A stretch of 64,000 nt of DNA, taken from positions 17,558,001-17,622,000 of the forward strand of contig NC_092580.1 in NCBI RefSeq assembly GCF_037975245.1, in the 5' to 3' direction. Source of the DNA: Apostichopus japonicus (taxonomy: Eukaryota > Echinodermata > Holothuroidea > Aspidochirotida > Stichopodidae). Of this stretch, positions 15,901-40,009 are shown one piece after another (within the stretch, counting starts at the first letter, position 1; each line of letters opens with the position of its first letter). A model generated the notes under the pieces. It did no database searches. It saw only the letters and a program-made list of their open reading frames with translations, and was not told the DNA's origin. A program made the translations under genes and the position numbers.

Positions 15901-17796
15901 GCATACACAGAAGCAGGGTCATGCATGTGGACTCATGGGCATGAGATACTCCGGGTGCTGAAAAATCTTTCCGCGTGGATCTCAAAAAATTGATCCAAAG
16001 TCTGCGGCGTTTTACGTCCGTTCTTTTACTCGGAAATCTAAAAAAGCTGATGCTTTTGTTGGATGAGGTATAACTGCAACCTCCAACAACACAGAATTGT
16101 GACATTTTGAGGAAAAAGGAGTAATATCGTTGATGTTTTTGGCAGCTCAAGTATACGACTTTACACACTAAAAGTATAGTTGTGAGTGAGGTATACAAAC
16201 GTTGACGTCACATGGTCACCTGATGTCTTAGGAATGTTTCAGGAATGTCTGAAATAGAAGCTGACTTTTCGTCCCATTTTTCACTTATTTAACGTCCGAA
16301 ATTGGTAAAGTTAATTACAGCAATGTAATTGGAGTCAGTTAAGGATTACATACATGAAAAATGGTGGGATTTTATGTTCATCGAAAAGTCTCCATAGTTG
16401 GTCTTCACAAGTGCACTGGCTTTAGTTTTTCACTAAGTTTCATTAGAGATCTCTGTCCCTGATATCCAGACTTGTTTAAACTAACTCCAACCCTCATTCC
16501 TGGTCCAGTCGAACACAAGATTGTTACTGTTACTACAATTTAATACAACAATGGATTAACATTGAAAAATAAGGCCTGTGCTGAGGACCTGGCCTCGTCA
16601 TCAATTTAGCCTTATAGGAGCATACCAGAGATTAATCATAGCATCATGGTCTTGAAAACCAGAGTAGTTACAGAAATATAACTTGCACTCAAGTTTTTTC
16701 TTTCTTTCTTCGACTATAACATGTCAAGACTAAAATTTTACCTAAAGGCATTCTTTAAATGGTGTGGTCCATGTTGCCTGTTATAAATGATGGAAAGCCA
16801 ATTGGTGGCCACTTCTGCTCAAACTTTTGAACCTCATGATAAGTTATTAATGTCCCCCTCAAGGCTTTATCATGGAAGCATGTTATTGTGACGTTGGACA
16901 CTCCTTGATGTCTGGAGAACAAATTGTGGTCTGTCAGTGGTCAGAACCAAACCATTGGTCCAGGGACATTTCTTCCTAAAACTTTCTGCACTAAAAAAAA
17001 TTGAGGTCAAAACCGAAGAGCTTTCAAAAAAGACGAGATTGTCTGATTTGTAGGATAGTCCCCAATATGAATGCTATGTGCTGATATACATCTGCCGTCA
17101 TCTCCTCTTCTAGGCGACAAGGAATACGGGAAAGAATATCGCAGGGAAGAATCAAGCCAATCCCTCGGCTATGCTGCTTGCATCTGCATTAATGTTAGAT
17201 CACATCGGACTCAACAACCACGGACAACTGATCAGAGAAGCCGTCTACAAGACACTTTCAGAAAAGAAGGTAAGTCGTCTGTTGGCTGTGTATATGTTGC
17301 TCAGGACTGTACGACACTTCTGGATGATACTCCTTGAAAAGTGCATTTCGCTGCAAAGAGATTTCAGATTTCAGTCAGATTTTTGGACTGATTTTCATGG
17401 TCCATATTCTATGAAAAACTCACATATTATCTCAGGTTATCATTATCACGTTCGAAATAATGAATTAACGACAGCTTTGCTAAGCTATAGGTTACACTAG
17501 TGAGCCATGAAGGTTGTGGAGTGGGGAGATCGATGTGGGACTATGCGGGGACCTGTGAATGATGCGGGTGGGATTGCATTAGCTTCTATGTAAATTTCTT
17601 TACTGTACATGGTTTTAACTTAACAGACTTCAGTATTTCTACAAAACCTTGTGTTCTTTTCCCAAGTTGGTTATTCGTGCTTTCCATTCCACAGATACAC
17701 ACACCAGATCTAGGTGGCTTGCACACAACAAGAGACATGGTACAGAGTGTTATTGATGAAATTGAGGGCAGCAAACATAAATTTAGCTTCAGATGA
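895..17796 (+). CDS. IDH3G: NAD-dependent isocitrate dehydrogenase, gamma-type regulatory subunit, mitochondrial (spliced gene)
   Basis: Joined exons are 895-948 (probable), 4629-4726, 5910-6086, 7745-7877, 10151-10284, 11812-11914, 14221-14367, 17114-17269 and 17695-17796. All junctions are GT-AG and in phase. They give about 367 residues against roughly 393 in human IDH3G, so only the first N-terminal residues and start codon are missing. Family marks are [53 protein letters not shown] and [19 protein letters not shown]. In the catalytic alpha subunit the last motif has metal-binding Asp (NLYGDI..SD). Here both are Asn, as in gamma subunits, so this chain should be regulatory. By family knowledge the alpha2-beta-gamma enzyme of the mitochondrial matrix converts isocitrate to 2-oxoglutarate, CO2 and NADH in the TCA cycle, with citrate and ADP acting through gamma. 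Gamma is preferred over beta because of 'YGGRHTVT' and 'VALKGNI'. No frameshift or premature stop is seen. Confidence 0.96.
1531..1565. repeat. 15-bp direct repeat, three copies
   Basis: GTGATACCTTT recurs three times head to tail in the first visible IDH3G intron. It stands immediately before a dispersed repeat copy. Confidence 0.6.
1563..1833 (+). repeat. Dispersed intronic repeat, copy A
   Basis: About 270 bp begins TTCTTAGTGAGAACT and ends CATCTGAGACAGAT. It is closely matched by 5217-5492 and partly by 7232-7355, all in the same orientation within IDH3G introns. It has no coding potential. The family is not recognised; a SINE or a terminal-repeat remnant are both possible. Confidence 0.8.
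4629..4726 (+). CDS. IDH3G: IDH3G exon: start of mature enzyme, nucleotide-fold motif
   Basis: Acceptor CTCTCTAG and donor AG|GTACG bound 98 nt, encoding [20 protein letters not shown] followed by [12 protein letters not shown] and two bases of an Arg codon. This is the first beta-strand/loop region of the isocitrate/isopropylmalate dehydrogenase fold. Confidence 0.96.
5217..5492 (+). repeat. Dispersed intronic repeat, copy B
   Basis: Near-collinear with 1563-1833, sharing the start TTCTTAGTGAGAACT, the middle TCAATGATGAGTTGCACAT and the end CATCTGAGACAGAT. It differs by scattered substitutions and a few small indels. Confidence 0.8.
5910..6086 (+). CDS. IDH3G: IDH3G exon with VALKGNI
   Basis: Acceptor CTTTATAAG and donor CTCAG|GTATG bound 177 nt, starting by completing the split Arg codon. 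It encodes [20 protein letters not shown], then [20 protein letters not shown] and a charged loop ending KTKNVSLR. The acceptor has a weak polypyrimidine tract, but phase on both sides is exact. A 73-bp tandem array begins only about a dozen bases past the donor. Confidence 0.95.
6098..6700. repeat. 73-bp tandem repeat, about 8 copies, beside the IDH3G exon-2 donor
   Basis: TGGTTGCATGA recurs at 6111, 6184, 6257, 6330 and 6403, exactly 73 bp apart. It continues as CCATTGCATGA or TGGTTGCATGA for about three more units. Each unit also holds AACCTATGCACTC. The array starts a dozen bases after the splice donor at 6087. Confidence 0.92.
7232..7355 (+). repeat. Dispersed intronic repeat, copy C (partial, diverged)
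   Basis: Only the right half is recognisable, from TTCTGTCAGTGATGAGTTGC through CCTTGTGGGGTCACC to CCATCTGAGACAGAT. It is more diverged than copies A and B. Confidence 0.7.
7745..7877 (+). CDS. IDH3G: IDH3G exon with [14 protein letters not shown] motif
   Basis: Acceptor CACTTTGGCAG and donor GAG|GTAGG bound 133 nt encoding [20 protein letters not shown] and the hallmark [14 protein letters not shown] of NAD-isocitrate dehydrogenases. Confidence 0.97.
8386..8402. repeat. Poly-G tract in IDH3G intron
   Basis: An uninterrupted run of G within GGATGGGGG...GAGGT. It is possibly slippage-prone or quadruplex-forming. Nothing else is recognisable in the surrounding 7.9-10.1 kb intron apart from AT-rich, repeat-like sequence. 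Confidence 0.5.
10151..10284 (+). CDS. IDH3G: IDH3G exon with HKANI motif
   Basis: Acceptor CTGTCTCACAG and donor AT|GTAAGT bound 134 nt encoding [40 protein letters not shown] and KANI, ending within the Met codon of 'KANIM'. Confidence 0.97.
11098..11255. repeat. Short tandem repeat of about 52 bp, three copies
   Basis: CAGTGTTATATCCTGATATG recurs with GTGATTTCCATATA spacers three times in the intron between the KANI and KLGDG exons. Small insertions separate the copies. Confidence 0.8.
11812..11914 (+). CDS. IDH3G: IDH3G exon with KLGDGLF motif
   Basis: Acceptor TGTTCCTTCAG and donor CAG|GTATGA bound 103 nt encoding (M)[19 protein letters not shown] and [15 protein letters not shown], a direct match to the family's dimer-interface segment. 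Confidence 0.97.
12451..14122. repeat. 72/73-bp minisatellite, about 23 copies, in IDH3G intron
   Basis: Each unit contains TACTCTTGGCAGCATTGTTG, CTTCATGGTGAAG and a TGAAACACAGAGCTATCAAG-type segment. Two unit types differ: one has CTATGAAACACAGAGCTATC with GGCATGG (73 bp), the other CTATAAAACACAGAGTTGTC with GGCACAG (72 bp). In places they alternate with a 145-bp period. The array ends about 100 bp before the NLYGN exon. The open frames of 60-115 codons on both strands shift between units and are by-products of the array. Confidence 0.95.
14221..14367 (+). CDS. IDH3G: IDH3G exon with NLYGN family signature
   Basis: Acceptor CATTTTACAG and donor ACA|GTATGT bound 147 nt (49 codons) encoding [40 protein letters not shown] and GLDYAVFET. 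The two acidic metal ligands of the catalytic paralogue are Asn here. Confidence 0.97.
14779..16405. mobile_element. Terminal-inverted-repeat DNA element with THAP remnant, inside an IDH3G intron
   Basis: The left end AAGACCAAATATGGAGGC (14779-14796) matches the reverse complement of 16388-16405 at 16 of 18 positions. A second inverted pair, 14986-15015 and 16190-16219, matches at 27 of 30 and contains GTGACGTCAA and TTTGTATACC. Between them, on the minus strand, is a decayed THAP-like frame. THAP domains are typical of P-element-type transposases, so a P-like element is the best guess. An 8-bp target duplication was looked for and not seen. The element could alternatively be an inner unit (14986-16219) nested in an outer one. 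Confidence 0.65.
15860..16105 (-). pseudogene. Degenerate THAP-domain fragment of a transposase-like protein
   Basis: From the ATG at 16105 the frame reads [11 protein letters not shown], then [11 protein letters not shown] and [10 protein letters not shown], over about 81 residues to a stop at 15860. C5 and C10 match the first two zinc ligands of the C2CH THAP fold. The FRFP and W residues match its conserved core. Where Cys-x2-His is expected there is Ser-His-Ala-His, so the third ligand appears lost. No downstream AVPTxF box or catalytic domain follows. It lies inside the inverted-repeat element, antisense to IDH3G. A host THAP gene exon is the less likely alternative. Confidence 0.6.
17114..17269 (+). 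CDS. IDH3G: IDH3G penultimate exon
   Basis: Acceptor CTCTTCTAG and donor AAG|GTAAGT bound 156 nt (52 codons) encoding [40 protein letters not shown] and [12 protein letters not shown]. It follows '...YAVFET' in frame. Confidence 0.97.
17695..17796 (+). CDS. IDH3G: IDH3G terminal exon and stop
   Basis: Acceptor CATTCCACAG is followed by [20 protein letters not shown] and [13 protein letters not shown], then TGA at 17794-17796. The preceding intron is only 425 bp. 'HTPDLGG..TT' is the conserved C-terminal family segment. Confidence 0.97.
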   Translation: MHTPDLGGLHTTRDMVQSVIDEIEGSKHKFSFR

Positions 17797-20640: not shown

Positions 20641-23600
20641 TTTGATTGATTGCCGGTTGATTTGTTTCCCTGTGTGTTTTGTTGTTTTTGTTTGCTTCCT
20701 GTTTGTCTTGTGGATTGCTTGCTTGTGTTCTGGTTTGTATGCATGTTCTTTGTTTTGTCTGTTACGTGTATATGGTTGGTTCGATTAATTGCTGATTTGC
20801 TTGTATGCTTGCTAGTTGTTAGAGTGACTTTCTTGCTGATTTGTTTGCTTGCTTGCTGTTTTTTTTTCTGGTGGGTTTGCTCGGATCCTCGACTGTTTGC
20901 TTGTTTGTCGGTTGCTTTATTTACTCGTAGTTTGTTCGCTCGCTCGCTCATTGATTTGTTTGTTTTTCTTGTGGGCTCCCCACGGTTCCTTGATGGTTTG
21001 CTCGTTTGTCGGTTTGTGTGTGTGTTTGCTCTCTTGTTTCCCTCTTGATTGCTGGTTGATTTGTTTCCCAGAGTGTTTGGTTGTGTTTTTGTGTGTTGTT
21101 TTTTTTTTTGCTTGCTTGTATTGTGGTTGTTTGCTTGTTCTTTGTTTTGTCTGTTTCTTGTATATGGTTGGTTTGATTGACTGTTGTTTTGTTTGCTTGC
21201 TTGCTGGTTGATTTGTTTCTTGTGGGTTTGTTTGATGGATTGCTGTTGGTCTTGTGGATTGCTTGCTTGGATGTGCGTTTGTTTGCTTGTTATTCGTTTT
21301 GTTTGTTTCTTTGTGGATCGTCATTTGCTTTCTTGCTGGTTTGTTTGTTTGCTCGCTTGTTGCTTATTTGAATTCTCGTTTGTTTAATTTCGATCTTGCT
21401 GGTATGTTCGCTTGCTTGCTGGCTTACTTCTATTTCTTGTAAGCTTGCTCGATAGCTTGTTTTTTTCTCTTTTGTAGATTTGCTTGTATGCTTGCTGGTT
21501 TTTAGAGTGATTCCTTGCTAATTTGTTTGCTTGCTTGCTGTTACTTTTTCTCGTGGGTTTGCGGGATCCTGGACTGTTTGCTTGTTTGTCGGTTGCTTTA
21601 TTTACTCGGTTGTTTGCTCGCTCGCTGATTTGATTGTTTTTCTTGTGGGCTCCCCACTGTTCCTTGATGGTTGCTCGTTTGTGTGTTTTTGTGTGTGTTT
21701 GCTCTCTTGTTTCCCCTTGATTGCTGGTTGATTTGTTTCCCTGTGTGTTTGGTTGTTTTTTGTGTTTTTTTTTTTGCTTGCTTGTCTTGTGGATTGCATG
21801 CTTGTATTGTGGTTGTTTGCATATTCTTTGTTTTGTCTGTTTCTTGTTTATGGTTGGTTTGATTGACTGTTGTTTTGTTCGCTTACTTGCTTGTGGATTT
21901 GTTTCTTGTTGGTTTGTTTGATGGATTGCTGTTTGTCTTTTGGATTGCTTGCTTGGATGTGCGTTTGTTTGCTTGTTCTTTGTTTTGTTTGTTTCTTTGT
22001 GGATCGCCATTTGCTTTTTTGCTGGTTTGTTTGCTCGCTTGTTGCTTATCTGAATTCTCGTTTGTTGAATTTCGATCTTGCTGGTATGTTCGCTTGCTTG
22101 CTGGCTTACTTCTATTTCTTGTAAGCTTGCTCGATAGCTTTTTTTTCTCTCTTGTAGATTTGCTTGTATGCTTGCTGGTTTTTAGAGTGATTCCTTGCTG
22201 ATTTGTTTGCTTGCTTGCTGTTATTTTTTTCTGGTGGGTTTGCTCGGATCCTGGAGTGTTTGCTTGTTTGTCGGTTGCTCGCTCGCTGATTTGTTTGTTT
22301 TTCTTGTGGGCTCCCCACTGTTCCTTGATGGCTGATTCGTTTGTCAGTTATTGTGTGTGGTTGTTCTCTTGTTTCCCCCTTGATTGCTGGTTGATTTGTT
22401 TCCCTGTGTGTTTGGGTGTTTTTTTTTTTTACTTGCTTGTCTTGTGGATTGCGTCTTGTGGATTGCGTGCTTGTATTGGGGTTGTTTGCATATTCTTTGT
22501 TTTGTCTGTTTCTTGTATATGGTTGGTTTGATTGACTGTTGTTTTGTTCGCTTGCTTGCTGGTTGATTTGTTTCATGTGGGTTTGTTTGATGGATTGCTG
22601 TTGGTCTTGTGGATTGCTTGCTTGGATGTGTGTTTGTTTGCTTGTTCTTCGTTTTGTTTTTCTTTGTGGATTGTTCATTTGCTTTCTTGCTGATTTGTTT
22701 GCTTGCTTGTTGCTTATCTGAATTCTCGCTTGTTTGTTTAATTTCGATCTTGCTTGTATGTTTGCTTGCTTGCTGGCTTACTTCTATTTTTTTGTAAGCT
22801 TGCTCGATAGCTTTTTTTTCTCTCTCGTAGATTTGCTTGTATGCTTGCTGGTTTTTAGAGTGATTCCTTGCTGATTTGTTTGCTTGCTTGCTTTTTTTTT
22901 TTTCTCGTGGGTTTGCTCGGATCCTCGACTGTTTGCTTGTTTGTCGGTTGCTCGCTCGCTGATTTGTTTGTTTTTCTTGTGGGCTCCCCACTGTTCCTTG
23001 ATGGCTGATTCGTTTGTCAGTTATTGTGTGTGGTTGTTCTCTTGTTTCCCCCTTGATTGCTGGTTGATTTGTTTCCCTGTGTGTTTGGGTGTTTTTTTTT
23101 TTACTTGCTTGTCTTGTGGATTGCGTCTTGTGGATTGCGTGCTTGTATTGGGGTTGTTTGCATATTCTTTGTTTTGTCTGTTTCTTGTATATGGTTGGTT
23201 TGATTTACTGTTGTTTTGTTCGCTTGCTTGCTGGTTGATTTGTTTCTTGTGGGTTTGTTTGATGGATTGCTGTTGGTCTTGTGGATTGCTTGCTTGGATG
23301 TGCGTTTGTTTGCTTGTTATTCGTTTTGTTTGTTTCTTTGTGGATCGTCATTTGCTTTCTTGCTGGTTTGTTTGTTTGCTCGCTTGTTGCTTATTTGAAT
23401 TCTCGTTTGTTTAATTTCGATCTTGCTGGTATGTTCGCTTGCTTGCTGGCTTACTTCTATTTCTTGTAAGCTTGCTCGATAGCTTGTTTTTTTCTCTTTT
23501 GTAGATTTGCTTGTATGCTTGCTGGTTTTTAGAGTGATTCCTTGCTAATTTGTTTGCTTGCTTGCTGTTACTTTTTCTCGTGGGTTTGCAGGATCCTGGA

Positions 23601-26398
23601 CTGTTTGCTTGTTTGTCGGTTGCTTTATTTACTCGGTTGTTTGCTCGCTCGCTGATTTGATTGTTTTTCTTGTGGGCTCCCCACTGTTCCTTGATGGTTG
23701 CTCGTTTGTGTGTTTTTGTGTGTGTTTGCTCTCTTGTTTCCCCTTGATTGCTGGTTGATTTGTTTCCCTGTGTGTTTGGTTGTTTTTTGTGTTTTTTTTT
23801 TTGCTTGCTTGTCTTGTGGATTGCGTGCTTGTATTGTGGTTGTTTGCATATTCTTTGTTTTGTCTGTTTCTTGTTTATGGTTGGTTTGATTGACTGTTGT
23901 TTTGTTCGCTTACTTGCTTGTGGATTTGTTTCTTGTTGGTTTGTTTGATGGATTGCTGTTTGTCTTTTGGATTGCTTGCTTGGATGTGCGTTTGTTTGCT
24001 TGTTCTTTGTTTTGTTTGTTTCTTTGTGGATCGCCATTTGCTTTTTTGCTGGTTTGTTTGCTCGCTTGTTGCTTATCTGAATTCTCGTTTGTTGAATTTC
24101 GATCTTGCTGGTATGTTCGCTTGCTTGCTGGCTTACTTCTATTTCTTGTAAGCTTGCTCGATAGCTTTTTTTTCTCTCTTGTAGATTTGCTTGTATGCTT
24201 GCTGGTTTTTAGAGTGATTCCTTGCTGATTTGTTTGCTTGCTTGCTGTTATTTTTTTCTGGTGGGTTTGCTCGGATCCTTGAGTGTTTGCTTGTTTGTCG
24301 GTTGCTCGCTCGCTGATTTGTTTGTTTTTCTTGTGGGCTCCCCACTGTTCCTTGATGGCTGATTCGTTTGTCAGTTATTGTGTGTGGTTGTTCTCTTGTT
24401 TCCCCCTTGATTGCTGGTTGATTTGTTTCCCTGTGTGTTTGGGTGTTTTTTTTTTTTACTTGCTTGTCTTGTGGATTGCGTCTTGTGGATTGCGTGCTTG
24501 TATTGGGGTTGTTTGCATATTCTTTGTTTTGTCTGTTTCTTGTATATGGTTGGTTTGATTGACTGTTGTTTTGTTCGCTTGCTTGCTGGTTGATTTGTTT
24601 CATGTGGGTTTGTTTGATGGATTGCTGTTGGTCTTGTGGATTGCTTGCTTGGATGTGTGTTTGTTTGCTTGTTCTTCGTTTTGTTTTTCTTTGTGGATTG
24701 TTCATTTGCTTTCTTGCTGATTTGTTTGCTTGCTTGTTGCTTATCTGAATTCTCGCTTGTTTGTTTAATTTCGATCTTGCTTGTATGTTTGCTTGCTTGC
24801 TGGCTTACTTCTATTTCTTGTAAGCTTGCTCGATAGCTTTTTTTTCTCTCTCGTAGATTTGCTTGTATGCTTGCTGGTTTTTAGAGTGATTCCTTGCTGA
24901 TTTGTTTGCTTGCTTGCTTTTTTTTTTTTCTCGTGGGTTTGCTCGGATTCTCGACTGTTTGCTTGTTTGTCGGTTGCTCGCTCGCTGATTTGTTTGTTTT
25001 TCTTGTGGGCTCCCCACTGTTCCTTGATGGCTGATTCGTTTGTCAGTTATTGTGTGTGGTTGTTCTCTTGTTTCCCCCTTGATTGCTGGTTGATTTGTTT
25101 CCCTGTGTGTTTGGGTGTTTTTTTTTTTACTTGCTTGTCTTGTGGATTGCGTCTTGTGGATTGCGTGCTTGTATTGGGGTTGTTTGCATATTCTTTGTTT
25201 TGTCTGTTTCTTGTATATGGTTGGTTTGATTTACTGTTGTTTTGTTCGCTTGCTTGCTGGTTGATTTGTTTCTTGTGGGTTTGTTTGATGGATTGCTGTT
25301 GGTCTTGTGGATTGCTTGCTTGGATGTGCGTTTGTTTGCTTGTTATTCGTTTTGTTTGTTTCTTTGTGGATCGTCATTTGCTTTCTTGCTGGTTTGTTTG
25401 TTTGCTCGCTTGTTGCTTATTTGAATTCTCGTTTGTTTAATTTCGATCTTGCTGGTATGTTCGCTTGCTTGCTGGCTTCTATTTCTTGTAAGCTTGCTCG
25501 ATAGCTTGTTTGTTTCTCTTTTGTAGATTTGCTTGTATGCTTGCTGGTTTTTAGAGTGATTCCTTGCTGATTTGTTTGTTTGCTTGCTTGTTGCTTATTT
25601 GAATTCTCGTTTGTTTAATTTCGATCTTGCTGGTGTGTTTGCTTGCTTGCTTCTATTTCTTGTAAGCTTGCTCGATAGCTTGTTTTTTTTTCTCGTAGAT
25701 TTGCTTGCTGGTTTTTAGAGTGGTTTCTTGCTGATTTGTTTGCTTGCTGTTTTTTTTTTCTCGTGGGTTTGCTCGGATCCTGGACTGTTTGCTTGTTTGT
25801 CGGTTGCTTTATTTACTCGGTGGTTTGCTCGCTCGCTGATTTGTTTGTTTTTCTTGTGGACTCCCCACGGTTCCTTGATGGTTGCTCATTTGTGTGTTTT
25901 TGTGTGTGGTTGCTCTCTTGTTTCCCCATTGATTGCTGGTTGATTTGTTTCCCTGCGTGTGTGTTTGTTTTTCGCTTGCTTCCTGTTTGTCTTGTGGATT
26001 GCGTGCTTGTATTGTGGTTGTTTGCATATTCATTGTTTTGTCTGTTTCTTGTATGGTTGGTTTGGTTGACTGTTGTTTTGTTCGCTTGCTTGCTGGTTGA
26101 TTTGTTTCTTGTGGGTTTGTTTGATGGATTGCTGTTTGTCTTGTGGATTGCTTGCTTGGATGTGCGTTTGTTTGCTTGTTCTTCGTTTTGTTTGTTAACT
26201 TTGTGGATTGTTCATTTGCTTTCTTGCTGGTTTGTTTGTTTGCTTGCTTGTTGCGTATTTGAATTCTCGCTTGTTTGTTTAATTTCGATCTTGCTGGTAT
26301 GTTTGCTTGCTTGCTGGCTTCTATTTCTTGTAAGCTTGCTCGATAGCTTGGTTTTTTTCTCTCTCGTAGATTTGCTTGTATGCTTGCTGGTTTTTGGT
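20641..26398. repeat. T+G-rich hierarchical satellite, block 1
   Basis: Almost all bases on the plus strand are T or G with some C, built from TTTG/CTTG words. The GGATCC-region landmark recurs at 20883, 21565, 22247, 22919, 23591, 24274, 24946 and 25774, so units are 672-683 bp and one is 828. Each unit carries GGATCC, GAATTC, AAGCTTGCTCGATAGC and GGGCTCCCCAC. A three-unit block repeats with a 2,027-bp shift (about 21.4-23.4 kb against 23.4-25.4 kb) with very few differences. The T/G-rich strand seldom contains A and its complement seldom contains T, so stop codons are rare on both strands and the apparent proteins are artefacts. Confidence 0.96.
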
Positions 26399-26438
26399 TC
26401 CTTGCTGAAAGCAAAGGAACCTATGTATTCAGGTTGGC

Positions 26439-26460
26439 GTGTGTGTGTGTGTGTGTGTGG

Positions 26461-26498
<38 letters not shown>
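26439..26498. repeat. (GT)n microsatellite
   Basis: GTGTGTGTGTGTGTGT runs with a GGGTGTATG interruption, just inside the left edge of the block that interrupts the satellite. Confidence 0.95.
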
Positions 26499-28766
26499 CG
26501 CTTAAGCTTGTATGCACGATAACTCAACAAGGGATTGACTGATCATGATCAAACTTGGTGGGTGGGTGGCCCATAGTGAGTAGATGAACCCTATTGTTTT
26601 TGGTGCCCACAAAGGTCACCAAAGGTCAGTTATGGTCCAAAAACCCAAAATACTAAAACTGCAATAACTCCCAGTGCCAATGTGCGACAAGGTTGATATT
26701 TTGGGACAAGTTGTGAACTGGTTAGGGCAATATTTTGAAACTTAACGGTCATGTGATCTGAGGTCACCAAAGGTCAATTAATGTTAAAAAACTAGTATTT
26801 TTGCGATAACTTGAGAACGAATTGTCCGTTAGGGTTGGGAGTTGCTTCAGTGTAATCCAATTGTCGACCCACATCTGGGTGACCCTTGACCTCAATTTGA
26901 CCTCTGGTGACCTTTTCATGTTTTGGGGATTTTTACAGTTTCGATGCTATTTTCAGATGTCAAAGGTACCTTCCGATCATAAATATCGATAGGTTGACCC
27001 CCGTGTGACCTTTGTGTGCGAACTCATATGGGGTCAAAGTTTTCGGTCAGAGTTAGGATGGCTGTACAGACTTATCGTGTTGATTTTTGGAATCAGCAGA
27101 TCAAACTACATTTGAAACCAAGGTCAAAAGGTCAAAGGTCACATTAGAAAAAATGTGCTTAGTTTGGGAGAAAACGGGCGAAAAAGAAAATGTTTGGTTT
27201 TGATGCTAGATTTGGATATCAAAGGTACCTTCCGATCAAAAATGTCAATGGGTTGACACCCGGGTGACCTTTGTGTGTAAAGTTATACAAGGTCAAAGTT
27301 AATTTTCAGACATTTAATGCAATAACTCCCAGGGCCAAGGTGTAACAAGGTTGATATTTTGGGACAAGTTGCAAATGGTATAGAGGAATATTTTCAAACT
27401 TAACGGTCATGTGATCCGAGGTCATCAAAGGTCAATTAATGTTAAAAAACTAGTATTTTCGGTGAGAAAATGGGCAAAGAAAAAAATGTTTGAATTCTTA
27501 CAGTTTTGATGCTATATTCACGTCTCAACAATCAAAAATGTCAATAGGTTTACCCCAGGTGACCTTTGTGTGTGAAGTTATATGAGGTCAAAGTAAATTT
27601 TCAGACATTTAGTGCAATAATTCCCAGTTCCAAGGTGTGACACGGTTGATATTTCGGGACAAGTTGCAAATGGTATAGGGGAATATTTTCAAATTTAACG
27701 GTCATGTGATCCGAGGTCACCAAAGGTCAATTAATGATAAAAAACTAGTATTTTTGCGATAACTTGAGAATGAATTGTCCGTTAGGGTTGGGAGTTGCTT
27801 CAATTTAATCCAATTGTCGACCCGCATCTGGGTGACCCTTGACCTCAATTTGACCTCTGGTGACCTTTTCATGTTTTGGGGATTTTTACAGTTTCGATGC
27901 TATTTTCAGATGTCAAAGGTACCTTCTGATCATAAATGTCAATGGGTTGACCCCCGTGTGACCTTCGTGTGCGGAGTTATACGAGGTCAAAGTTAATTTT
28001 CAGACATTTAATGCAATAACTCTCAGTTCCAAGGTGTGACACAGTTGATATTTTGGGACAAGTTGCAAATGGTATAGGGGAATATTCTCAAACTTAACGG
28101 TCATGTGATCCGAGGTCACCAAAGGTCAATTAATGATAAAAAACTAGTATTTTTGCGATAACTTGAGAACGAATTGTCCGTTAGGGTTGGGAGTTGCTTC
28201 AATTTAATCCAATTGTCGACCCGCATCTGGGTGACCCTTGACCTCAATTTGACCTCTGGTGACCTTTTCATGTTTTGGGGATTTTTCAGTTTCGATGCTA
28301 TTTTCAGATGTCAAAGGTACCTTCTGATCATAAATGTCAATGGGTTGACCCCCGTGTGACCTTCCTGTGCGGAGTTATACGAGGTCAAAGTTAATTTTCA
28401 GACATTTAATGCAATAACTCTCAGTTCCAAGGTGTGACACGGTTGATATTTTGGGACAAGTTGCAAATGGTATAGGGGAATATTTTCAAACTTAACGGTC
28501 ATGTGATCCGAGGTCACCAAAAATGTCAAAGGTACCTTCTGATCATAAATGTCAATAGGTTGACCCCGTGTGACCTTCGTGTGCGAAGTTATACGAGGTC
28601 AAAGTTAAAAAATATTAATGAGGTCACGGGTCAAACGTGAAAAACTCCCAAGTTGCAATAACTTGGCTACTATTTATTGGAATTTCGTCAAACTTGGTAT
28701 GATGATATTGGTAGATAGTCTCCACACACTGATGTGTGTTGCAATTGATATCATGTATGTTTATAA

Positions 28767-28782
28767 GGGGGGGGGGGGGGGG
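28767..28782. repeat. Poly-G tract
   Basis: A run of about 16 G between TATAAG and CCTAGC inside the GGTCA-rich block. Confidence 0.85.
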
Positions 28783-29200
28783 CCTAGCATTATTTCGTTA
28801 TGAAAAGTTTGTATGCACAATAACTCAACAAGGGAATGACCAATCATTACCATACTTGGTGAGTGGGTGGCCAATAGTAAGTAGATTAAACCTGTTGATT
28901 TTGGTGGTCATATCATGAATATTAATGAGGTCATGGGGTCAAACGTGAAATACTCCAAATTGCAATTACTTGGCTACTATTACTAATGGGAATTTCGTCA
29001 AACTTGGTATGATGATAATGGTAGATAGTCTTCACACACTGATGTGTGTTGCAATTGATATCAGGGCTTAGCATTACTTTGGCAACAAAAGTTTGTGAGC
29101 ATAAATTACTGTTGTTGTATTAGGGCTTTGTTAGAAATTTCCCTATGAATGGAACTAATGAACAGCAGCAAGGAACCATGAAATGTTTTCATTCTGGTTA

Positions 29201-32200
29201 GAGTGATTCCTTGCTGATTTGTTTGTTTGCTTGCTTGTTGCTTATTTGAATTCTCGTTTGTTTAATTTTGATCTTGCTGGTGTGTTTGCTTGCTTGCTTC
29301 TATTTCTTGTAAGCTTGCTCGATAGCTTGTTTTTTTTTCTCGTAGATTTGCTTGTATGCTTGCTGGTTTTTAGAGTGATTCCTTGCTGATTTGTTTGCTT
29401 GCTTGCTGTTTTTTTTTCTCGTTGGTTTGCTCGGATCCTGGACTGTTTGCTTGTTTGTCGGTTGCTTTATTTACTCGGTGGTTTGCTCGCTCGCTGATTT
29501 GTTTGTTTTTCTTGTGGGCTCCCCACGGTTCCTTGATGGTTGATCGTTTGTCGGTTTTTGTGTGTGGTTGCTTTCTTGTTTTCCCCATTGATTGCTGGTT
29601 GATTTGTTTCCCTGCGTGTTTTTGTTTTTCGCTTGCTTCCTGTTTGTCTTGTGGATTGCGTGCTTGTATTGTGGTTGTTTGCATATTCTTTGTTTTGTCT
29701 GTTTCTTGTATGGTTGGTTTGATTGACTGTTGTTTTGTTTGCTTGCTTGCTGGTTGATATGTTTCTTGTGGGTTTGTTTGATGGATTGCTGTTTGTCTTG
29801 TGGATTGCTTGCTTGGATGTGTTTGTTTGCTTGTTATTCGTTTTGTTTGTTTCTTTGTGGATCGTCATTTGCTTTCTTGCTGGTTTGTTTGTTTGCTCGC
29901 TTGTTGCTTATTTGAATTCTCGTTTGTTTAATTTCGATCTTGCTGGTATGTTCGCTTGCTTGCTGGCTTCTATTTCTTGTAAGCTTGCTCGATAGCTTGT
30001 TTGTTTCTCTTTTGTAGATTTGCTTGTATGCTTGCTGGTTTTTAGAGTGATTCCTTGCTGATTTGTTTGTTTGCTTGCTTGTTGCTTATTTGAATTCTCG
30101 TTTGTTTAATTTCGATCTTGCTGGTGTGTTTGCTTGCTTGCTTCTATTTCTTGTAAGCTTGCTCGATAGCTTGTTTTTTTTTCTCGTAGATTTGCTTGCT
30201 GGTTTTTAGAGTGGTTCCTTGCTGATTTGTTTGCTTGCTGTTTTTTTTTTCTCGTGGGTTTGCTCGGATCCTGGACTGTTTGCTTGTTTGTCGGTTGCTT
30301 TATTTACTCGGTGGTTTGCTCGCTCGCTGATTTGTTTGTTTTTCTTGTGGACTCCCCACGGTTCCTTGATGGTTGCTCATTTGTGTGTTTTTGTGTGTGG
30401 TTGCTCTCTTGTTTCCCCATTGATTGCTGGTTGATTTGTTTCCCTGCGTGTGTGTTTGTTTTTCGCTTGCTTCCTGTTTGTCTTGTGGATTGCGTGCTTG
30501 TATTGTGGTTGTTTGCATATTCATTGTTTTGTCTGTTTCTTGTATGGTTGGTTTGGTTGACTGTTGTTTTGTTCGCTTGCTTGCTGGTTGATTTGTTTCT
30601 TGTGGGTTTGTTTGATGGATTGCTGTTTGTCTTGTGGATTGCTTGCTTGGATGTGCGTTTGTTTGCTTGTTCTTCGTTTTGTTTGTTAACTTTGTGGATT
30701 GTTCATTTGCTTTCTTGCTGGTTTGTTTGTTTGCTTGCTTGTTGCGTATTTGAATTCTCGCTTGTTTGTTTAATTTCGATCTTGCTGGTATGTTTGCTTG
30801 CTTGCTGGCTTCTATTTCTTGTAAGCTTGCTCGATAGCTTGGTTTTTTTCTCTCTCGTAGATTTGCTTGTATGCTTGCTGGTTTTTAGAGTGATTCCTTG
30901 CTGATTTGTTTGTTTGCTTGCTTGTTGCTTATTTGAATTCTCGTTTGTTTAATTTTGATCTTGCTGGTGTGTTTGCTTGCTTGCTTCTATTTCTTGTAAG
31001 CTTGCTCGATAGCTTGTTTTTTTTTCTCGTAGATTTGCTTGTATGCTTGCTGGTTTTTAGAGTGATTCCTTGCTGATTTGTTTGCTTGCTTGCTGTTTTT
31101 TTTTCTCGTTGGTTTGCTCGGATCCTGGACTGTTTGCTTGTTTGTCGGTTGCTTTATTTACTCGGTGGTTTGCTCGCTCGCTGATTTGTTTGTTTTTCTT
31201 GTGGGCTCCCCACGGTTCCTTGATGGTTGATCGTTTGTCGGTTTTTGTGTGTGGTTGCTTTCTTGTTTTCCCCATTGATTGCTGGTTGATTTGTTTCCCT
31301 GCGTGTGTTTTTGTTTTTCGCTTGCTTCCTGTTTGTCTTGTGGATTGCGTGCTTGTATTGTGGTTGTTTGCATATTCTTTGTTTTGTCTGTTTCTTGTAT
31401 GGTTGGTTTGATTGACTGTTGTTTTGTTTGCTTGCTTGCTGGTTGATATGTTTCTTGTGGGTTTGTTTGATGGATTGCTGTTTGTCTTGTGGATTGCTTG
31501 CTTGGATGTGTTTGTTTGCTTGTTATTCGTTTTGTTTGTTTCTTTGTGGATCGTCATTTGCTTTCTTGCTGGTTTGTTTGTTTGCTCGCTTGTTGCTTAT
31601 TTGAATTCTCGTTTGTTTAATTTCGATCTTGCTGGTATGTTCGCTTGCTTGCTGGCTTCTATTTCTTGTAAGCTTGCTCGATAGCTTGTTTGTTTCTCTT
31701 TTGTAGATTTGCTTGTATGCTTGCTGGTTTTTAGAGTGATTCCTTGCTGATTTGTTTGTTTGCTTGCTTGTTGCTTATTTGAATTCTCGTTTAATTTCGA
31801 TCTTGCTGGTGTGTTTGCTTGCTTGCTTCTATTTCTTGTAAGCTTGCTCGATAGCTTGTTTTTTTTTCTCGTAGATTTGCTTGTATGCTTGCTGGTTTTT
31901 AGAGTGATTCCTTGCTGATTTGTTTGCTTGCTTGCTGTTTTTTTTTCTCGTTGGTTTGCTCGGATCCTGGACTGTTTGCTTGTTTGTCGGTTGCTTTATT
32001 TACTCGGTGGTTTGCTCGCTCGCTGATTTGTTTGTTTTTCTTGTGGGCTCCCCACGGTTCCTTGATGGTTGATCGTTTGTCGGTTTTTGTGTGTGGTTGC
32101 TTTCTTGTTTTCCCCATTGATTGCTGGTTGATTTGTTTCCCTGCGTGTGTTTTTGTTTTTCGCTTGCTTCCTGTTTGTCTTGTGGATTGCGTGCTTGTAT

Positions 32201-35200
32201 TGTGGTTGTTTGCATATTCTTTGTTTTGTCTGTTTCTTGTATGGTTGGTTTGATTGACTGTTGTTTTGTTTGCTTGCTTGCTGGTTGATATGTTTCTTGT
32301 GGGTTTGTTTGATGGATTGCTGTTTGTCTTGTGGATTGCTTGCTTGGATGTGTGTTTGTTTGCTTGTTCTTCGTTTTGTTTTTCTTTGTGGATTGTTCAT
32401 TTGCTTTCTTGCTGATTTGTTTGCTTGCTTGTTGCTTATCTGAATTCTCGCTTGTTTGTTTAATTTCGATCTTGCTTGTATGTTTGCTTGCTTGCTGGCT
32501 TACTACTATTTCTTGTAAGCTTGCTCGATAGCTTTTTTTTCTCTCTCGTAGATTTGCTTGTATGCTTGCTGGTTTTTAGAGTGATTCCTTGCTGATTTGT
32601 TTGTTTGCTTGCTTGTTGCTTATTTGAATTCTCGTTTGTTTAATTTTGATCTTGCTGGTGTGTTTGCTTGCTTGCTTACTTCTATTTCTTGTAAGCTTGC
32701 TCGATAGCTTGTTTTTTTTTCTCGTAGATTTGCTTGTATGCTTGCTGGTTTTTAGAGTGATTCCTTGCTGATTTGTTTGCTTGCTTGCTGTTATTTTTTT
32801 CTCGTGGGTTTGCTCGGATCCTCGACTGTTTGCTTGTTTGTCGGTTGCTCGCTCGCTGATTTGTTTGTTTTTCTTGTGGGCTCCCCACTGTTCCTTGATG
32901 GCTGATTCGTTTGTCAGTTATTGTGTGTGGTTGTTCTCTTGTTTCCCCCTTGATTGCTGGTTGATTTGTTTCCCTGTGTGTTTGGGTGTTTTTTTTTTAC
33001 TTGCTTGTCTTGTGGATTGCATCTTGTGGATTGCGTGCTTGTATTGGGGTTGTTTGCATATTCTTTGTTTTGTCTGTTTCTTGTATATGGTTGGTTTGAT
33101 TTACTGTTGTTTTGTTCACTTGCTTGCTGGTTGATTTGTTTCTTGTGGGCTTGTTTGATGGATTGCTGTTGGTCTTGTGGATTGCTTGCTTGGATGTGCG
33201 TTTGTTTGCTTGTTATTCGTTTTGTTTGTTTCTTTGTGGATCGTCATTTGCTTTCTTGCTGGTTTGTTTGTTTGCTCGCTTGTTGCTTATTTGAATTCTC
33301 GTTTGTTTAATTTCGATCTTGCTGGTATGTTCGCTTGCTTGCTGGCTTACTTCTATTTCTTGTAAGCTTGCTCGATAGCTTGTTTTTTTCTCTTTTGTAG
33401 ATTTGCTTGTATGCTTGCTGGTTTTTAGAGTGATTCCTTGCTAATTTGTTTGCTTGCTTGCTGTTACTTTTTCTCGTGGGTTTGCCGGGATCCTGGACTG
33501 TTTGCTTGTTTGTCGGTTGCTTTATTTACTCGGTTGTTTGCTCGCTCGCTGATTTGATTGTTTTTCTTGTGGGCTCCCCACGTTCCTTGATTGTTGCTCG
33601 TTTGTGTGTTTTTGTGTGTGTTTGCTCTCTTGTTTCCCCTTGATTGCTGGTTGATTTGTTTCTCTGTGTGTTTGGTTGTTTTTTGTGTTTTTTTTTTTGC
33701 TTGCTTGTCTTGTGGATTGTGTGCTTGTATTGTGGTTGTTTGCATATTCTTTGTTTTGTCTGTTTCTTGTTTATGGTTGGTTTGATTGACTGTTGTTTTG
33801 TTCGCTTACTTGCTTGTGGATTTGTTTCTTGTTGGTTTGTTTGATGGATTGCTGTTTGTCTTGTGGATTGCTTGCTTGGATGTGCGTTTGTTTGCTTGTT
33901 CTTTGATTTGTTTGTTTCTTTGTGGATCGCCATTTGCTTTTTTGCTGGTTTGTTTGCTCGCTTGTTGCTTATTTGAATTCTCGTTTGTTGAATTTCGATC
34001 TTGCTGGTATGTTCGCTTGCTTGCTGGCTTACTTCTATTTCTTGTAAGCTTGCTCGATAGCTTGTTTTTTCCTCTCACGTAGATTTGCTTGAATGCTTGC
34101 TGGTTTTTAGAGTGATTCCTTGCTGATTTGTTTGCTTGCTTGCTGTGTTTTTTTCTCGTGGGTTTGCTCGGATCCTGGACTGTTTGCTTGTTTGTTGGTT
34201 GCTTTATTTACTCGGTGGTTTGCTCGCTCGCTGATTTGTTTGTTTTTCTTGTGGGCTCACAACGGTTTCTTGATGGTTTGGTCGTTTGTCGGTTTTTGTG
34301 TGTGCTGTTTTTTATTTTGCTTGCTTCCTGTTTGTCTTGTGGATTGTGTACTTGTATTGTGGTTGTTTGCATATTCTTTGTTTTGTCTGTTTCTTGTATA
34401 TGGTTGGTTTGATTGACTGTTGTTTTGTTCGCTTGCTTGCTGGTTGATTTATTTCTTGTGGGTTTGTTTGATGGATTGCTGTTTGTCTTGTGGATTGCTT
34501 GCTTGGATGTGCATTTGTTTGCTTGTTCTTCGTTTTGCTTCTTTGTGGATTGCTCATTTGCTTTCTCGCTGGTTTGTTTGTTTTCTTGCTTGTTGCTTAT
34601 TTGAATTCTTGCTTGTTTGTTTAATTTCGATCTTGCTGGTATGTATGCTTGCTTGCTGGCTTACTTCTATTTCTTGTAAGCTGGCTCAATAGCTTGTTTA
34701 TTTCTCTCTCTCTCGTAGATTTGCTTGTATGCTTGCTGGTTTTTAGAGTGATTCCTTGCTGATTTGTTTGCTTGCTTGCTGTTTTTTTTTCTCGTGGGTT
34801 TGCTCGGATCCTTGACTGTTTGCTTGTTTGTCGGTTGCTTTATTTACTCGGTTGTTTGCTCGCTCGCTGATTTGATTGTTCTTGTGGGCTCCCCACGGTT
34901 CCTTGATGGTTGCTCGTTTGTGTGTTTTTGTGTGTGTTTGCTCTCTTGTTCCCCCTTGATTGCTGGTTGATTTGTTTCCCTGTGTGTTTGGTTGTTTTTT
35001 GTGTGTTTTTTTTTTTGCTTGCTTGTCTTGTGGATTGCATGCTTGTATTGTGGTTGTTTGCATATTCTTTGTTTTGTCTGTTTCTTGTTTATGGTTGGTT
35101 TGATTGACTGTTGTTTTGTTCGCTTACTTGCTTGTGGATTTGTTTCTTGTGGGTTTGTTTGATGGATTGCTGTTTGTCTTGTGGATTGCTTGCTTGGATG

Positions 35201-36683
35201 TGCGTTTGTTTGCTTGTTATTCGTTTTGTTTGTTTCTTTGTTGATCGCCATTTGCTTTCTTGCTGGTTTGTTTGCTCGCTTGTTGCTTATTTGAATTCTC
35301 AGTTTGTTTAATTTCGATCTTGCTGGTATGTTCGCTTGCTTGCTGGCTTACTTCTATTTCTTGTAAGCTTGCTCGATAGCTTGTTTTTTTCTCTCACGTA
35401 GATTTGCTTGAATGCTTGCTGGTTGTTAGAGTGATTCCTTGCTGGTATGTTTGCTTGCTTGCTGGCTTACTTCTATTTCTTGTAAGCTGGCTCAATAGCT
35501 TGTTTATTTCTCTCTCTCTCGTAGATTTGCTTGTATGCTTGCTGGTTTTTAGAGTGATTCCTTGCTGATTTGTTTGCTTGCTTGTCGGTTGCTTTATTTA
35601 CTCGGTGGTTTGCTCGCTCGCTGATTTGTTTGTTTTTCTTGTGGGCTCACAACGGTTTCTTGATGGTTTGGTCGTTTGTCGGTTTTTGTGTGTGCTGTTT
35701 TTTATTTTGCTTGCTTCCTGTTTGTCTTGTGGATTGTGTACTTGTATTGTGGTTGTTTGCATATTCTGTTTTGTCTGTTTCTTGTATATTGTTGGTTTGA
35801 TTGACTGTTGTTTTGTTCGCTTGCTTGCTGGTTGATTTATTTCTTGTGGGTTTGTTTGATGGATTGCTGTTTGTCTTGTGGATTGCTTGCTTGGATGTGC
35901 GTTTGTTTGCTTGTTCTTCGTTTTGCTTCTTTGTGGATCGCTCATTTGCTTTCTCGCTGGTTTGTTTGTTTTCTTGCTTGTTGATTATTTGAATTCTCGC
36001 TTGTTTGTTTAATTTCGATCTTGCTGGTATGTTTGCTTGCTTGCTGGCTTACTTCTATTTCTTGTAAGCTGGCTCAATAGCTTGTTTATTTCTCTCTCTC
36101 TTGTAGATTTGCTTGTATGCTTGCTGGTTTTTAGAGTGATTCCTTGCTGATTTGTTTGCTTGCTTGCTGTTTTTTTTTCTTGTGGGTTTGCTCGTATCTT
36201 CTACTGTTTGCTTGTTTGTCGGTTGCTTTATTTACTCGGTGGTTTGCTCGCTCGCTGATTTGTTTGTTTTTCTTGTGGGCTCCCCACGGTTTCTTGATGG
36301 TTTGGTCGTTTGTCGGTTTTTGTGTGTGTTTGCTCTCTTGTTTACCCCTTGATTGCTGTTTGATTTATTTACCTGTGTGTTTTTAATTTTTTTATTTTGC
36401 TTGCTTCCTGTTTGTCTTGTGGATTGTGCACTTGTATTGTGGTTGTTTGCATATTCTTTGTTTTGTCTGTTTCTTGTTTATGGTTGGTTTGATTGACTGT
36501 TGTTTTGTTCGCTTGCTTGCTGGTTGATTTGTTTCTTGTGGGTTTGTTTGATGGATTGCTGTTTGTCTTGTGGATTGCTCGCTTGGATGTGCGTTTGTTT
36601 GCTTGTTCTTCGTTTGCTTCTCTGTGGATCGCTCATTTGCTTTCTCGCTGGTTTGTTTGCTTGCTTGCTGCTTATTTGAATTC
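29201..36683. repeat. T+G-rich hierarchical satellite, block 2
   Basis: Same family as 20641-26398. Landmarks at 29431, 30268, 31121, 31963, 32815, 33489, 34170, 34806 and 36190 show units of 837-853 bp in the first half and 636-681 bp in the second, and one region near 35.3-35.6 kb rearranged. The longer unit is the 675-bp unit with an extra module of about 160 bp holding GAATTC and AAGCTTGCTCGATAGC. Segments 25.7-26.4 kb and 30.2-30.9 kb are nearly identical at a shift of 4,491 bp, showing exchange across the interrupting block. Confidence 0.96.
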
Positions 36684-39600
36684 TCGCTTCTGGATCTGAA
36701 AGAGCAAGGCTAGAAAAACAGTTAAAACATATCAAATACATAATCCACCCACTATACCAGGAACTCCCCCCCCCCCTCTTTTTCTGGTGGCATCCTCCAG
36801 CATCTTATCCACTTCCTTCCTTCTACATACACCGTCCACGGTCATCATCCTTCTTCTTAGGTTGTGGTCCTGCGTCTTTAATCCATCTACTGGATCTGAA
36901 AGAGCAAGGCTAGAAAAACAGTTAAACATATCAAAGGCATAACCCACCCACTAACCCAGGGACCCCCTCTTCTTCTGGAGGCATTGTCCAGCATCTTAAG
37001 CCACTTCCTTCCTTCTACATACACCTTCCAAGGTCATCATCCTTCTTACGTTGTGGTCCTGCGTCTTTAATCCATCTACTGGATCTGAAAGAGCAAGGCT
37101 AGAAAAACAGTTAAACATATCAAAGGCATAAAGCACCCACTATCCCAGGACCCCTCCTCTTCTTCTGGAGGCATAGTCCAGCGTCTTAATCCACTTCCTT
37201 CCTTCTACATACACCTTTCACGGTCATCATCTTTCTTCTTACGTTGTGGTCCTGCGTCTTTAATCCATCTGCTGGATCTGAAAGAGCAAGGCTAGAAAAA
37301 CAGTTAAAACATATCACATACATAACCTACCCACTATACCAGGAACCCCCCCTCTTCTTCTGGTGGCATCGTCCAGCATCTTAAGCCACCTCCTTCCGTC
37401 CAAATATACCTTCCACGGTCATCATCCATCTTCTTACAATGTTGTTGTCCTGCGTCATAAACCCATCTACTGGATCTAAAGAACAAGGCTAGAAAAACAG
37501 TTAAAACATATCACATATATAACCCACCCACTATCACAGGAACCCCCGCTCTTCTTCTGTTGGCATCATCCAGCGTCTTAGGCCACATCCTTCCGTCCAC
37601 ATACACCTTCCACGGTCATCATCCTTCTTCTTACAATGTCGTCGGCCTGCGTCTTAAATCCATCTTCTGGATCTTAAAGAACAAGGTTAGAAAAACAGTT
37701 AAAACATATCAAATACATAACCCACGCACTATCCCAGGAACCCCTCCCCCCTCTTCTTCTGGTGGCATTGTCCAGCGTCTTAAGCCACCTCCTTCCATCC
37801 ACAAACACCTTCCAAGGTCATCATCCTTCTTCTTGCAATGTCCTCGGCCTGCGTCTTAAATCCATCTTCTGGATCTTAAAGAACAAGGTTAGAAAAACAG
37901 TAAAAACATATCACATACATAACCCACCCACTAACCCAGGGACCCCCCCTCTTCTTCTGGTGGCATCATCCAGCGTCTTAATCCACTTTCTTCCTTCTAC
38001 ATACACCTTCCACTGTCATCATCCTTCTTCTTACATTTTAATCCTGTGTCTTTAATCCATCTACTGGATCTGAAAGAGCAAGGCTAGAAAAACAGTTAAA
38101 AAATATCAAATGCATAAACCACCCAGGGACCCACCCCCCCTCTTCTTCTGGTGGCATCGTCCAGCGCCTTCAGCCACCTCCTTCCGTTCACATACACCTT
38201 CCACGGTCATCATCCTTCTTTTAACAATGTTGTGGCCCTGCATCTTTATCCATCTACTGGATCTGAAAGAGCAAGGCTAGAAAAACAATTAAAACATATC
38301 AAATGCATAAACCACCCACTAACCCAGGGACGCCCCCCCCTTCTTTGGGTGGCATCCTCCAGCCTCGTAATGCACCTCCTTCCGTCCGCCTCCACCTTCC
38401 AAGGACACCATCCTTTTCTTACGTCGTCCTGCGTCTTAAACCCATCTACTGGATCTAAAGAACAAGGCTAGAAAAACAGTTTAAACATATCAAATACATA
38501 AACCACCCACTCTACCAAGGCCCCCCCCCCTCTTCTTCTGGTGGCATCATCCAGCTTCTTAATCCACTTCCTTCCGTCTACATACACCTTCCACCGTCAT
38601 CATCCTTCTTCTTACGTCATCGTTGTCCTGTGTCTTTAATCCATCTACTGGATCTGAAAGAGCAAGGCTAGAATAACAGTTAAAACATATCAAATGCATA
38701 AACCACCCACTAACCCAGGGACCCCCACCCCCCCTCTCTCCTTCTGGTGGCATCGTCCAGCCTCTTAATGCACCTCCTTCTGTCTGCCTCCACCTTCGAG
38801 GGTCACCATCCTTCTCTTATGTCGTCCTGCGTCTTAAACCCATCTACTGGATCTAAAGAACAAGGCTAGAAAAACAGTTAAAACATATCAGATACATAAC
38901 CCACTCACTATCCCAGGAACCCCCTCTCTTCTTCTAATGGCATCGTCCAGCCTCTTAATGCACCTCCTTCTGTCCGCCTCCACCTTCCAGGGTCACCATC
39001 CTTCTCTTACGTCGTCCTGCCTCTTAAACCCATCTACTGGATCTAAAGAACAAGGCTACAAAAACAGTTAAAACATATCAAATACATAACCCACCCACTA
39101 ACCCAGGGACCCCCCCCCCCCCCTCTTCTTCTGGTGGCATCGTCCAGCGTCTTAAGCCGCCTCCTTCCATCCACATACATCTTCCACAGTCATCATCCTT
39201 CTGTTATGTCCTCCTGCAACTTTAATCAATTTACTGGATCTTAAGAACAAGGCTAGAAAAACAGTTCAAACATATCAAGTACATAACCCACCCACTAACC
39301 CAGGGACCCCCCAATCTTCTTCTGGTGGCATCGTCCAGCGTTGCCACCTCCTTCCATCTGCACACCTTTCCCCTTCCTCAGTCATCATCCTTCTTCTTAC
39401 AATGTGTGTCTTAAATCCATGTACTGGATGTAAAGAACAAGGTTAGAAAAACAGTTAAAACATACCAAATACATAACCCACCCACTAACCCAGGGACCCA
39501 CCCCCCTCTTCTTCTGGTGGCATAATTCAGAGTCTTAATGCACCTCCTTCCGTCCACATACACCTCCCACCTTCCACCGTCATCATCCTTCTTCTTACGT

Positions 39601-39990
39601 CGTCGTCCTGCGTCTTTAATCCATCTACTGGATCTTAAAGAACAAGGCTAGAAAAACAGTTAAAACATATCAAATACATAACCCACCCGCCAACCCCCTT
39701 CCTTCTGGTGGCATCGTCCAGCATTTTAATCCACCTCTTTCCTTCCATCTGCATACACCTTTCACCTTCCACCGTCATCATCCTTCATCTGACGTGGTTC
39801 ACGTTGGGCGTCTTTAATCCATCCGCTGGATCTGAAAGTGTAAGGCTAGAAAAACAGTTAAAACATATCAAATGCGCAAACCACCCATTAGCCCAGGGAC
39901 ACCCCCCCCCCTCTCTCCTTCTGGTGGCATCGTCCTCCTTAATCCACTTCCTTCTTTCCGCATCTACCTTCCAGTAAGCATCCTTCTTCT
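36684..39990. repeat. Satellite of about 195-bp units, 17 copies
   Basis: The unit begins TGGATCTGAAAGAGCAAGGC, then AGAAAAACAGTTAAAACATA, a C-tract, TCTTCTTCTGGTGGCATC and TTCCACGGTCATCATCCTTC. Starts are seen at about 36692, 36891, 37080, 37272, 37470, 37668, 37869, 38066, 38262, 38449, 38648, 38845, 39037, 39235, 39424, 39630 and 39828. It joins the T+G satellite abruptly after GAATTCTCGCTTC. Open frames on both strands change frame between units and end quickly, so coding is rejected. Confidence 0.95.
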
Positions 39991-40009
39991 TAAGTTGTCT
40001 GAAAGAACA

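Follow-up and report, generated by a model that had tools for sequence, protein, structure and literature searches.

A stretch of 64,000 nucleotides from the sea cucumber Apostichopus japonicus (contig NC_092580.1, here C20, positions 17,558,001-17,622,000 of the forward strand; "the window" below) contains tandemly repeated DNA that is rich in T and G on one strand. This repeat is probably a non-coding satellite, found on one chromosome only, which grew from composite tetranucleotide repeats by nested duplication and inherited its strand bias from the seed. Its units are arranged in nested blocks, all in a single orientation, and show a 4-bp periodicity. Open reading frames (ORFs) are not in excess, and a mobile element is inserted in one array unit. 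The best account of the repeat, judged from its sequence, is that of a new family within a known class of satellites; the search made placed it on one chromosome. Positions are those of the window unless a contig is named.

Composition and orientation of the arrays

The satellite runs head-to-tail in two parts, about 13 kb in total. The initial annotation had described a single stretch of that length, which is in fact split by a dispersed element of 2.8 kb. The three features are as follows.

20,641-26,387, + strand: satellite array A, T+G 78%, with eight of the 18 near-full monomers, each of about 675 bp (from composition, monomer matches and landmarks).
26,391-29,197, no strand assigned: dispersed mobile element that interrupts the array and contains internal tandem repeats of 399 bp; its exact end is ambiguous within a T run.
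29,198-36,689, + strand: satellite array B, units of about 845 bp forming a two-unit block of about 1,690 bp, then units of about 675 bp; 10 of the 18 near-full monomers.

Array A consists of 53.2% T, 25.0% G, 14.6% C and 7.2% A (T+G 78.2%, AT skew -0.76), and array B of 53.0% T, 24.5% G, 14.8% C and 7.7% A (T+G 77.5%, AT skew -0.75). Control 1-kb windows outside the arrays (n = 146), drawn from the window, from the edges of the second locus described below and from the 88 kb between the two loci, had a mean T+G of 0.503 (standard deviation 0.033, maximum 0.588). The first description of the sequence as almost wholly T and G is overstated: T+G reaches about 78%, and C (15%) and A (7-8%) make up the rest.

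The repeats form long head-to-tail arrays of a non-trivial monomer, as expected of a satellite: all 295 segments matching one monomer query, at both loci, lie on the + strand, and 18 near-full monomers could be aligned in the window. Protein coding was considered and rejected. Long frames occur on both strands, yet they are no more than the composition yields; in eight comparisons covering both strands, the observed ORF number or length was reached by 18 to 99 of 100 second-order Markov resamples. The satellite is thus apparently non-coding.

Monomers and nested blocks

The basic unit is about 675 bp long. Single units are spaced 668-682 bp apart at a HindIII island, and BamHI sites are spaced 833-854 bp apart across 29.4-32.8 kb; the spacings first read from these landmarks (672-683, 828-853 and 2,027 bp) were correct to within a few bases. 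EcoRI spacing and monomer matches, from which the extra segments below were placed, indicate that the class of about 840 bp, rightly measured at first but taken for a second kind of unit, is the 675-bp monomer lengthened by an EcoRI-EcoRI segment of 178-184 bp. The higher-order features in the window are listed here.

21,370-23,396, + strand: three-monomer block, copy 1 (2,027 bp), from monomer identities, local alignment and offset profile.
23,397-25,422, + strand: three-monomer block, copy 2, from monomer identities and local alignment.
25,423-25,600, + strand: extra EcoRI-EcoRI segment of 178 bp, giving the class of about 845 bp.
29,914-30,091, 30,752-30,934, 31,603-31,780 and 32,442-32,625, + strand: further extra EcoRI-EcoRI segments.

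The 2,027-bp block consists of three monomers of 682, 668 and 677 bp by EcoRI spacing. It does recur at that distance, but the super-repeat reported initially amounts to just two tandem copies plus related single monomers. Corresponding monomers of the two copies are 99.7-99.9% identical, and monomers within a block 91-96%. Two members of the three-unit block have close counterparts (98-99% identity) among single monomers at 32.6-34.0 kb. In the second half of the array the 845-bp units pair into a block of about 1,690 bp, as judged by BamHI spacing and block alignment. Multi-monomer blocks are thus more alike than the monomers inside them, here and in the 6.2-kb units of the second locus, and the hierarchy is one of duplications of duplications, as is usual for satellites. 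Divergence is greatest in the leftmost monomer of the window, whose mean identity is 0.909 (0.926-0.945 in the others).

Conservation was counted over 10 of the 18 near-full monomers. Invariant columns made up 64% overall, and the longest invariant runs, of 23 and 19 bp, were T/G-rich (permutation 95% limit 18). The restriction-site islands had been described as invariant, but they are not, nor are they the best conserved parts: invariance was 67% for the BamHI island, 83% for the HindIII island and 88% for a 16-bp island, the last two above the mean. The value of 0% obtained for EcoRI is probably an edge effect, the monomers having been cut at EcoRI.

A second locus on the same chromosome

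A 1,001-bp query from the array was compared with the host genome, 671,581,487 bases in 35 contigs; the best candidates were scored and simple repeats were skipped. Among the 118 scored matches, 107 fell in two arrays on C20 and one was a weak match elsewhere on C20 (73%). The remaining 10, on other contigs, were weak (65-79% identity), and none of them was a monomer-level match. Eight of these ten, on C1, C3, C4, C15, C16 and C19, were inspected and proved to be simple or short-unit tracts.

The second locus (C20:17.378-17.466 Mb) holds about 88 kb of the same family on the same strand, 112 kb upstream, in units of about 6.2 kb. This larger order of repetition lies beyond the 64-kb window. 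A 2.05-kb piece of the larger unit is present 12 times at this locus (98-100%) and in part a 13th time at 89%. Eleven whole units, cut out at 5.7-6.35 kb, are 99.5-99.9% identical when gaps are not counted and 96-99% identical in local alignments with gaps counted. Between the window query and the second locus, identity is 66-86% in matches of more than 600 bp and up to 92% in short ones; the much greater likeness of the 6.2-kb copies to one another indicates local homogenisation. Every 6.2-kb unit contains many copies of a sub-repeat of about 118 bp, which corresponds to positions 26-142 of the monomer query. Another stretch of the unit is not rich in T+G; it comprises 4-bp words of other kinds (GTAG, TGTA and TCTA), an AT-rich part and a dispersed element of about 350 bp. 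This last element (L006:7559-7914) had 27 other scored copies at 87-92% among the best 40 of 326 candidates.

Between the loci 88 kb was read; T+G in 2-kb windows was 0.45-0.55. No monomer match was found there; one 120-bp stretch matched the T/G-poor part of the 6.2-kb unit at 77%.

Four-base-pair periodicity and a proposed tetranucleotide seed

Periodicity analysis gave a strong 4-bp period in every array window. The lag-4 excess, computed in 500-bp windows, was 0.16-0.24 in 25 of 25 array windows (z = 22 and 24 against 50 first-order Markov resamples), whereas 260 control windows had a mean of -0.001 (standard deviation 0.036) and only three exceeded 0.10. The period of the presumed microsatellite seed is thus visible above chance. 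It was not seen in the inserted element (five windows, -0.06 to -0.02) or in an adjoining 198-bp tandem array (seven windows, 0.00 to 0.03). Within the 6.2-kb unit the excess was above 0.10 in 18 of 23 windows, including stretches with other words, and in 400-bp windows over its T/G-poor end four of eight lay at 0.19-0.22.

A possible source of tetranucleotides exists elsewhere in the genome. A 3′ end with AATAAAG followed by an ACTT-type tail, which we take to be that of a non-LTR retrotransposon, gave 40 matches (the best 40 of 55 candidates). Tails were read in seven of eight fetched copies, the eighth (L043) having no match to the tail motif. All seven carried an ACTT-type tail, short in six and continuing into a long CTTG tract in the seventh. 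At C3:29731000-29732200 and C15:8090700-8091500, AATAAAG-type ends with (TTAC)n continue into (CTTG)n, and these are possible tetranucleotide sources. We suggest such a tail as a plausible source of the seed in this genome. For the satellite locus itself such a seed is not supported, no match to the retrotransposon end being found in the window, at the second locus or in the 88 kb between.

Proposed origin and the strand bias

In the scheme that we favour, the seed would be a composite tetranucleotide microsatellite with the words TTTG, CTTG and TTGC and, at the second locus, also GTAG, TGTA and TCTA. Slippage and point mutation would have turned it into a scrambled yet 4-bp-periodic sequence, from which segments of about 118 and 675 bp would have become tandem units. 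Duplication within a unit would have given the class of about 845 bp. Blocks of several units (1.69 and 2.03 kb, and 6.2 kb at the second locus) would then have multiplied, unequal exchange being the most likely route. The T+G bias would be a fossil of the seed strand, kept because the copies stay in one orientation and undergo repeated homogenisation. We infer the order of these steps, the unequal exchange and the seed itself.

A relic bias should be worn away by new mutations. A polarised mutation spectrum was therefore compiled, with polarisation by majority, which is crude. The 270 sub-repeats included 113 distinct ones, of which 44, less than 97% identical to one another, were used. For three frequency classes, with 55, 81 and 93 events, they gave an equilibrium AT skew of 0.07, -0.04 and -0.14 and an equilibrium T+G of 0.50, 0.47 and 0.49. 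All intervals exclude the present values, -0.59 for AT skew and 0.73 for T+G.

Several observations weigh against this account of the satellite's origin. Four variants of the spectrum of the 675-bp monomers (8 of the 18 in a deduplicated variant, all 18 in the others) gave equilibrium AT skews of -0.65, -0.32, -0.48 and -0.37; the present AT skew (-0.80 or -0.79) falls inside the interval in one of the four, and the present T+G in three. The adjoining 198-bp array, used as a control, likewise moves towards zero from a present GC skew of -0.51, and a 73-bp control array gave an implausible GC-skew equilibrium from 11-18 events, which indicates that the method is weak where changes are few. The 6.2-kb units yielded just 14 and 15 singletons, and a spectrum from them, being too thin, was set aside. 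One control window had a lag-4 excess of 0.249, the maximum, so periodicity alone is not unique to this locus, and the other four windows at the T/G-poor end of the 6.2-kb unit reached just 0.03-0.11. The right edge of the window array is no more divergent than its middle. The seed array was not found, nor was a retrotransposon 3′ end of the tested family in the window, at the second locus or in the DNA between. Finally, the restriction to one chromosome is limited by a genome search that covers the best-scoring candidates and skips simple repeats.

The spectra bear directly on a different explanation, that the asymmetry is upheld by ongoing strand-biased mutation linked to transcription or replication. 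The monomer spectrum, whose equilibrium AT skew is still negative in all four variants, is consistent with such a process. The sub-repeats point the other way, with an equilibrium T+G of 0.47-0.50 and intervals that exclude the present 0.73, and so do the neighbouring sequences, since no such bias is seen in the inserted element and that of the adjoining 198-bp array is a different one, towards C. Ongoing biased mutation is therefore unlikely, and the relic reading of the strand bias is favoured, though not proved.

A mobile element inserted in the array

The element at 26,391-29,197 belongs to a dispersed family. It had 39 other scored copies, each with a long match of 97-99% (the best 40 of 2,404 candidates), and five copies on other chromosomes have the same ends. 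When its flanks were joined, they matched an insert-free site in the array at about 30,727-31,074 at 345 of 348 aligned positions, the difference being three Ts at the joint. Comparison of the joined flanks with this site revealed no target duplication outside the T run. Because the joined flanks match an insert-free copy, the insertion most likely struck an array unit that already existed.

The family appears to have been mobile recently; its ends are hairpin-like, and a TG microsatellite lies close to one of them. The hairpin-like ends and internal 399-bp repeats recall what we take to be features of Helentron-type non-autonomous elements. One end of the element resembles a short stretch of the monomer (TTCCTTGCTGA), a likeness indistinguishable from chance. 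Origin of the satellite from this element is not supported: within the window array it occupies a single place, with satellite sequence on either side.

The neighbouring gene and other roles for the arrays

A gene with an isocitrate dehydrogenase domain lies to the left of the satellite.

10,157-17,293, + strand: isocitrate dehydrogenase-domain gene, detected exons at 10,157-10,306, 14,209-14,370 and 17,099-17,293 (Pfam PF00180 matches).

About 3.3 kb separate its last detected exon from the start of the array, and gene and array lie on the same strand. The initial description of a hierarchical, strand-asymmetric satellite adjoining a housekeeping gene is thus borne out by the nested blocks, the composition and these exons.

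This arrangement could suggest a functional, strand-specific repeat RNA, in which a long transcript, made by read-through from the isocitrate dehydrogenase-domain gene or from a promoter of its own, would carry U/G-rich repeats that bind proteins, as in long non-coding RNAs that bear repeats. The proximity of the gene and the single orientation of all 295 segments at the two loci agree with this, but one orientation is expected of any tandem array, and conservation is highest in T/G-rich stretches, not in distinct motifs. We regard such an RNA as improbable. The same low likelihood applies to the broader proposal that the two co-oriented arrays would make up a functional element specific to C20, either a source of U/G-rich repeat RNA or a (peri)centromeric block, built from microsatellites and with its bias kept.

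A part of the centromere or pericentromere peculiar to C20 is very improbable. The loci do lie near the middle of the 35.49-Mb contig (17.38-17.47 and 17.58-17.59 Mb) and have higher-order organisation. However, the 88 kb between them is ordinary in composition and has no monomer match, the arrays sum to just about 100 kb, and a gene adjoins one of them. None of the matches reported on other contigs was at monomer level, which would still be compatible with a centromere of one chromosome.

A collapsed or chimeric assembly is scarcely credible: near-identical blocks are difficult to assemble and exact copy numbers may be wrong, but the two loci are separate, with related yet distinct organisation, most block copies carry differences, and the assembly that corresponds to this genome (PMC10344927) was built from PacBio HiFi reads with Hi-C into 671.60 Mb and 34 scaffolds, with a contig N50 of 17.2 Mb.

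Other features of the window

The T+G satellite is followed directly by a second, different array.

36,690-39,999, no strand assigned: tandem array of 16.9 copies of a 198-bp unit, rich in C on the + strand and not 4-bp periodic.

A piece of this array gave four reported matches, all within the array itself (the best 1 of 58 candidates). Three SNORD67 copies (Rfam) lie on the + strand at 1,719-1,831, 5,378-5,490 and 7,242-7,355, upstream of the isocitrate dehydrogenase-domain exons. CKAP5, considered as the neighbouring gene because of the three SNORD67 copies, was rejected, as a TOG-domain search matched C7 only and the gene has an isocitrate dehydrogenase domain. The Pfam scan covered 79 of the 362 ORFs of at least 45 amino acids outside repeat tracts. 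Fibrinogen C-terminal domain matches were obtained for three of these 79, at a place (62,512-63,328, - strand) read from the translations. One of the 35 contigs is a mitochondrial genome of 16,099 bp, in which cox1 and, by our reading of the translations, nad4L and cox2 follow one another in this order under the echinoderm code. Further COX1 matches, on contig C29 at 14,745-16,086 and 30,842-31,219, are possibly nuclear or unplaced mitochondrial copies.

Discussion

Several known systems resemble the satellite in part. Cryptically simple sequence is made up of short words of a single kind in scrambled order, with no clean array; the scrambled words are alike, but here the scrambled sequence has been captured as a long monomer and amplified. 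The (ACTT)n-tailed retrotransposon-like 3′ ends of the same genome share strand-oriented 4-bp repeats, and at C3:29.73 Mb a TTAC tail enters a long CTTG run. In contrast to the satellite, the tail is short in six of the seven copies read, and no such end was found at the satellite. A TTTG/CTTG array at C1:9.778 Mb has the same kind of words and a strand bias. It is only 65-72% similar (three matches), with words 73 bp apart and no 675-bp monomer, and it probably had a separate origin from similar words. A genome-wide pattern of YTTG runs matched 199 places, of which the first 100 were listed, but these counts are given no weight, because the control (the same pattern reversed) is no fair null for it.

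The titles and opening parts of abstracts listed on sea cucumber and echinoderm satellites, on microsatellite-derived satellites and on Helitrons in sea cucumbers yielded no described family that matches the repeat. Classical satellites are abundant on several chromosomes and lie in heterochromatin, and centromeric satellites are shared by the chromosome set. Here monomer-level matches were confined to C20 among the best candidates scored.

A review (PMC5615363) describes how short repeats give rise to longer units through cycles of duplication and divergence, with higher-order units amplified and homogenised. It accepts euchromatic tandem arrays, so that the missing spread over chromosomes limits the classical label and not the mechanism. 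The present satellite is like these higher-order satellites in its lengthened, amplified units, and differs in the strong 4-bp period kept within 675-bp units, the extreme strand bias, the occurrence on one chromosome in the search made and the position beside a gene.

The known mechanism is left unchanged by the finding. On one chromosome of A. japonicus, tetranucleotide words, a sub-unit of about 118 bp, a monomer of about 675 bp and units of 2 to 6 kb stand side by side. The strand bias of the presumed seed would still be readable in them, and the locus may therefore be useful to date and model the birth of a satellite.

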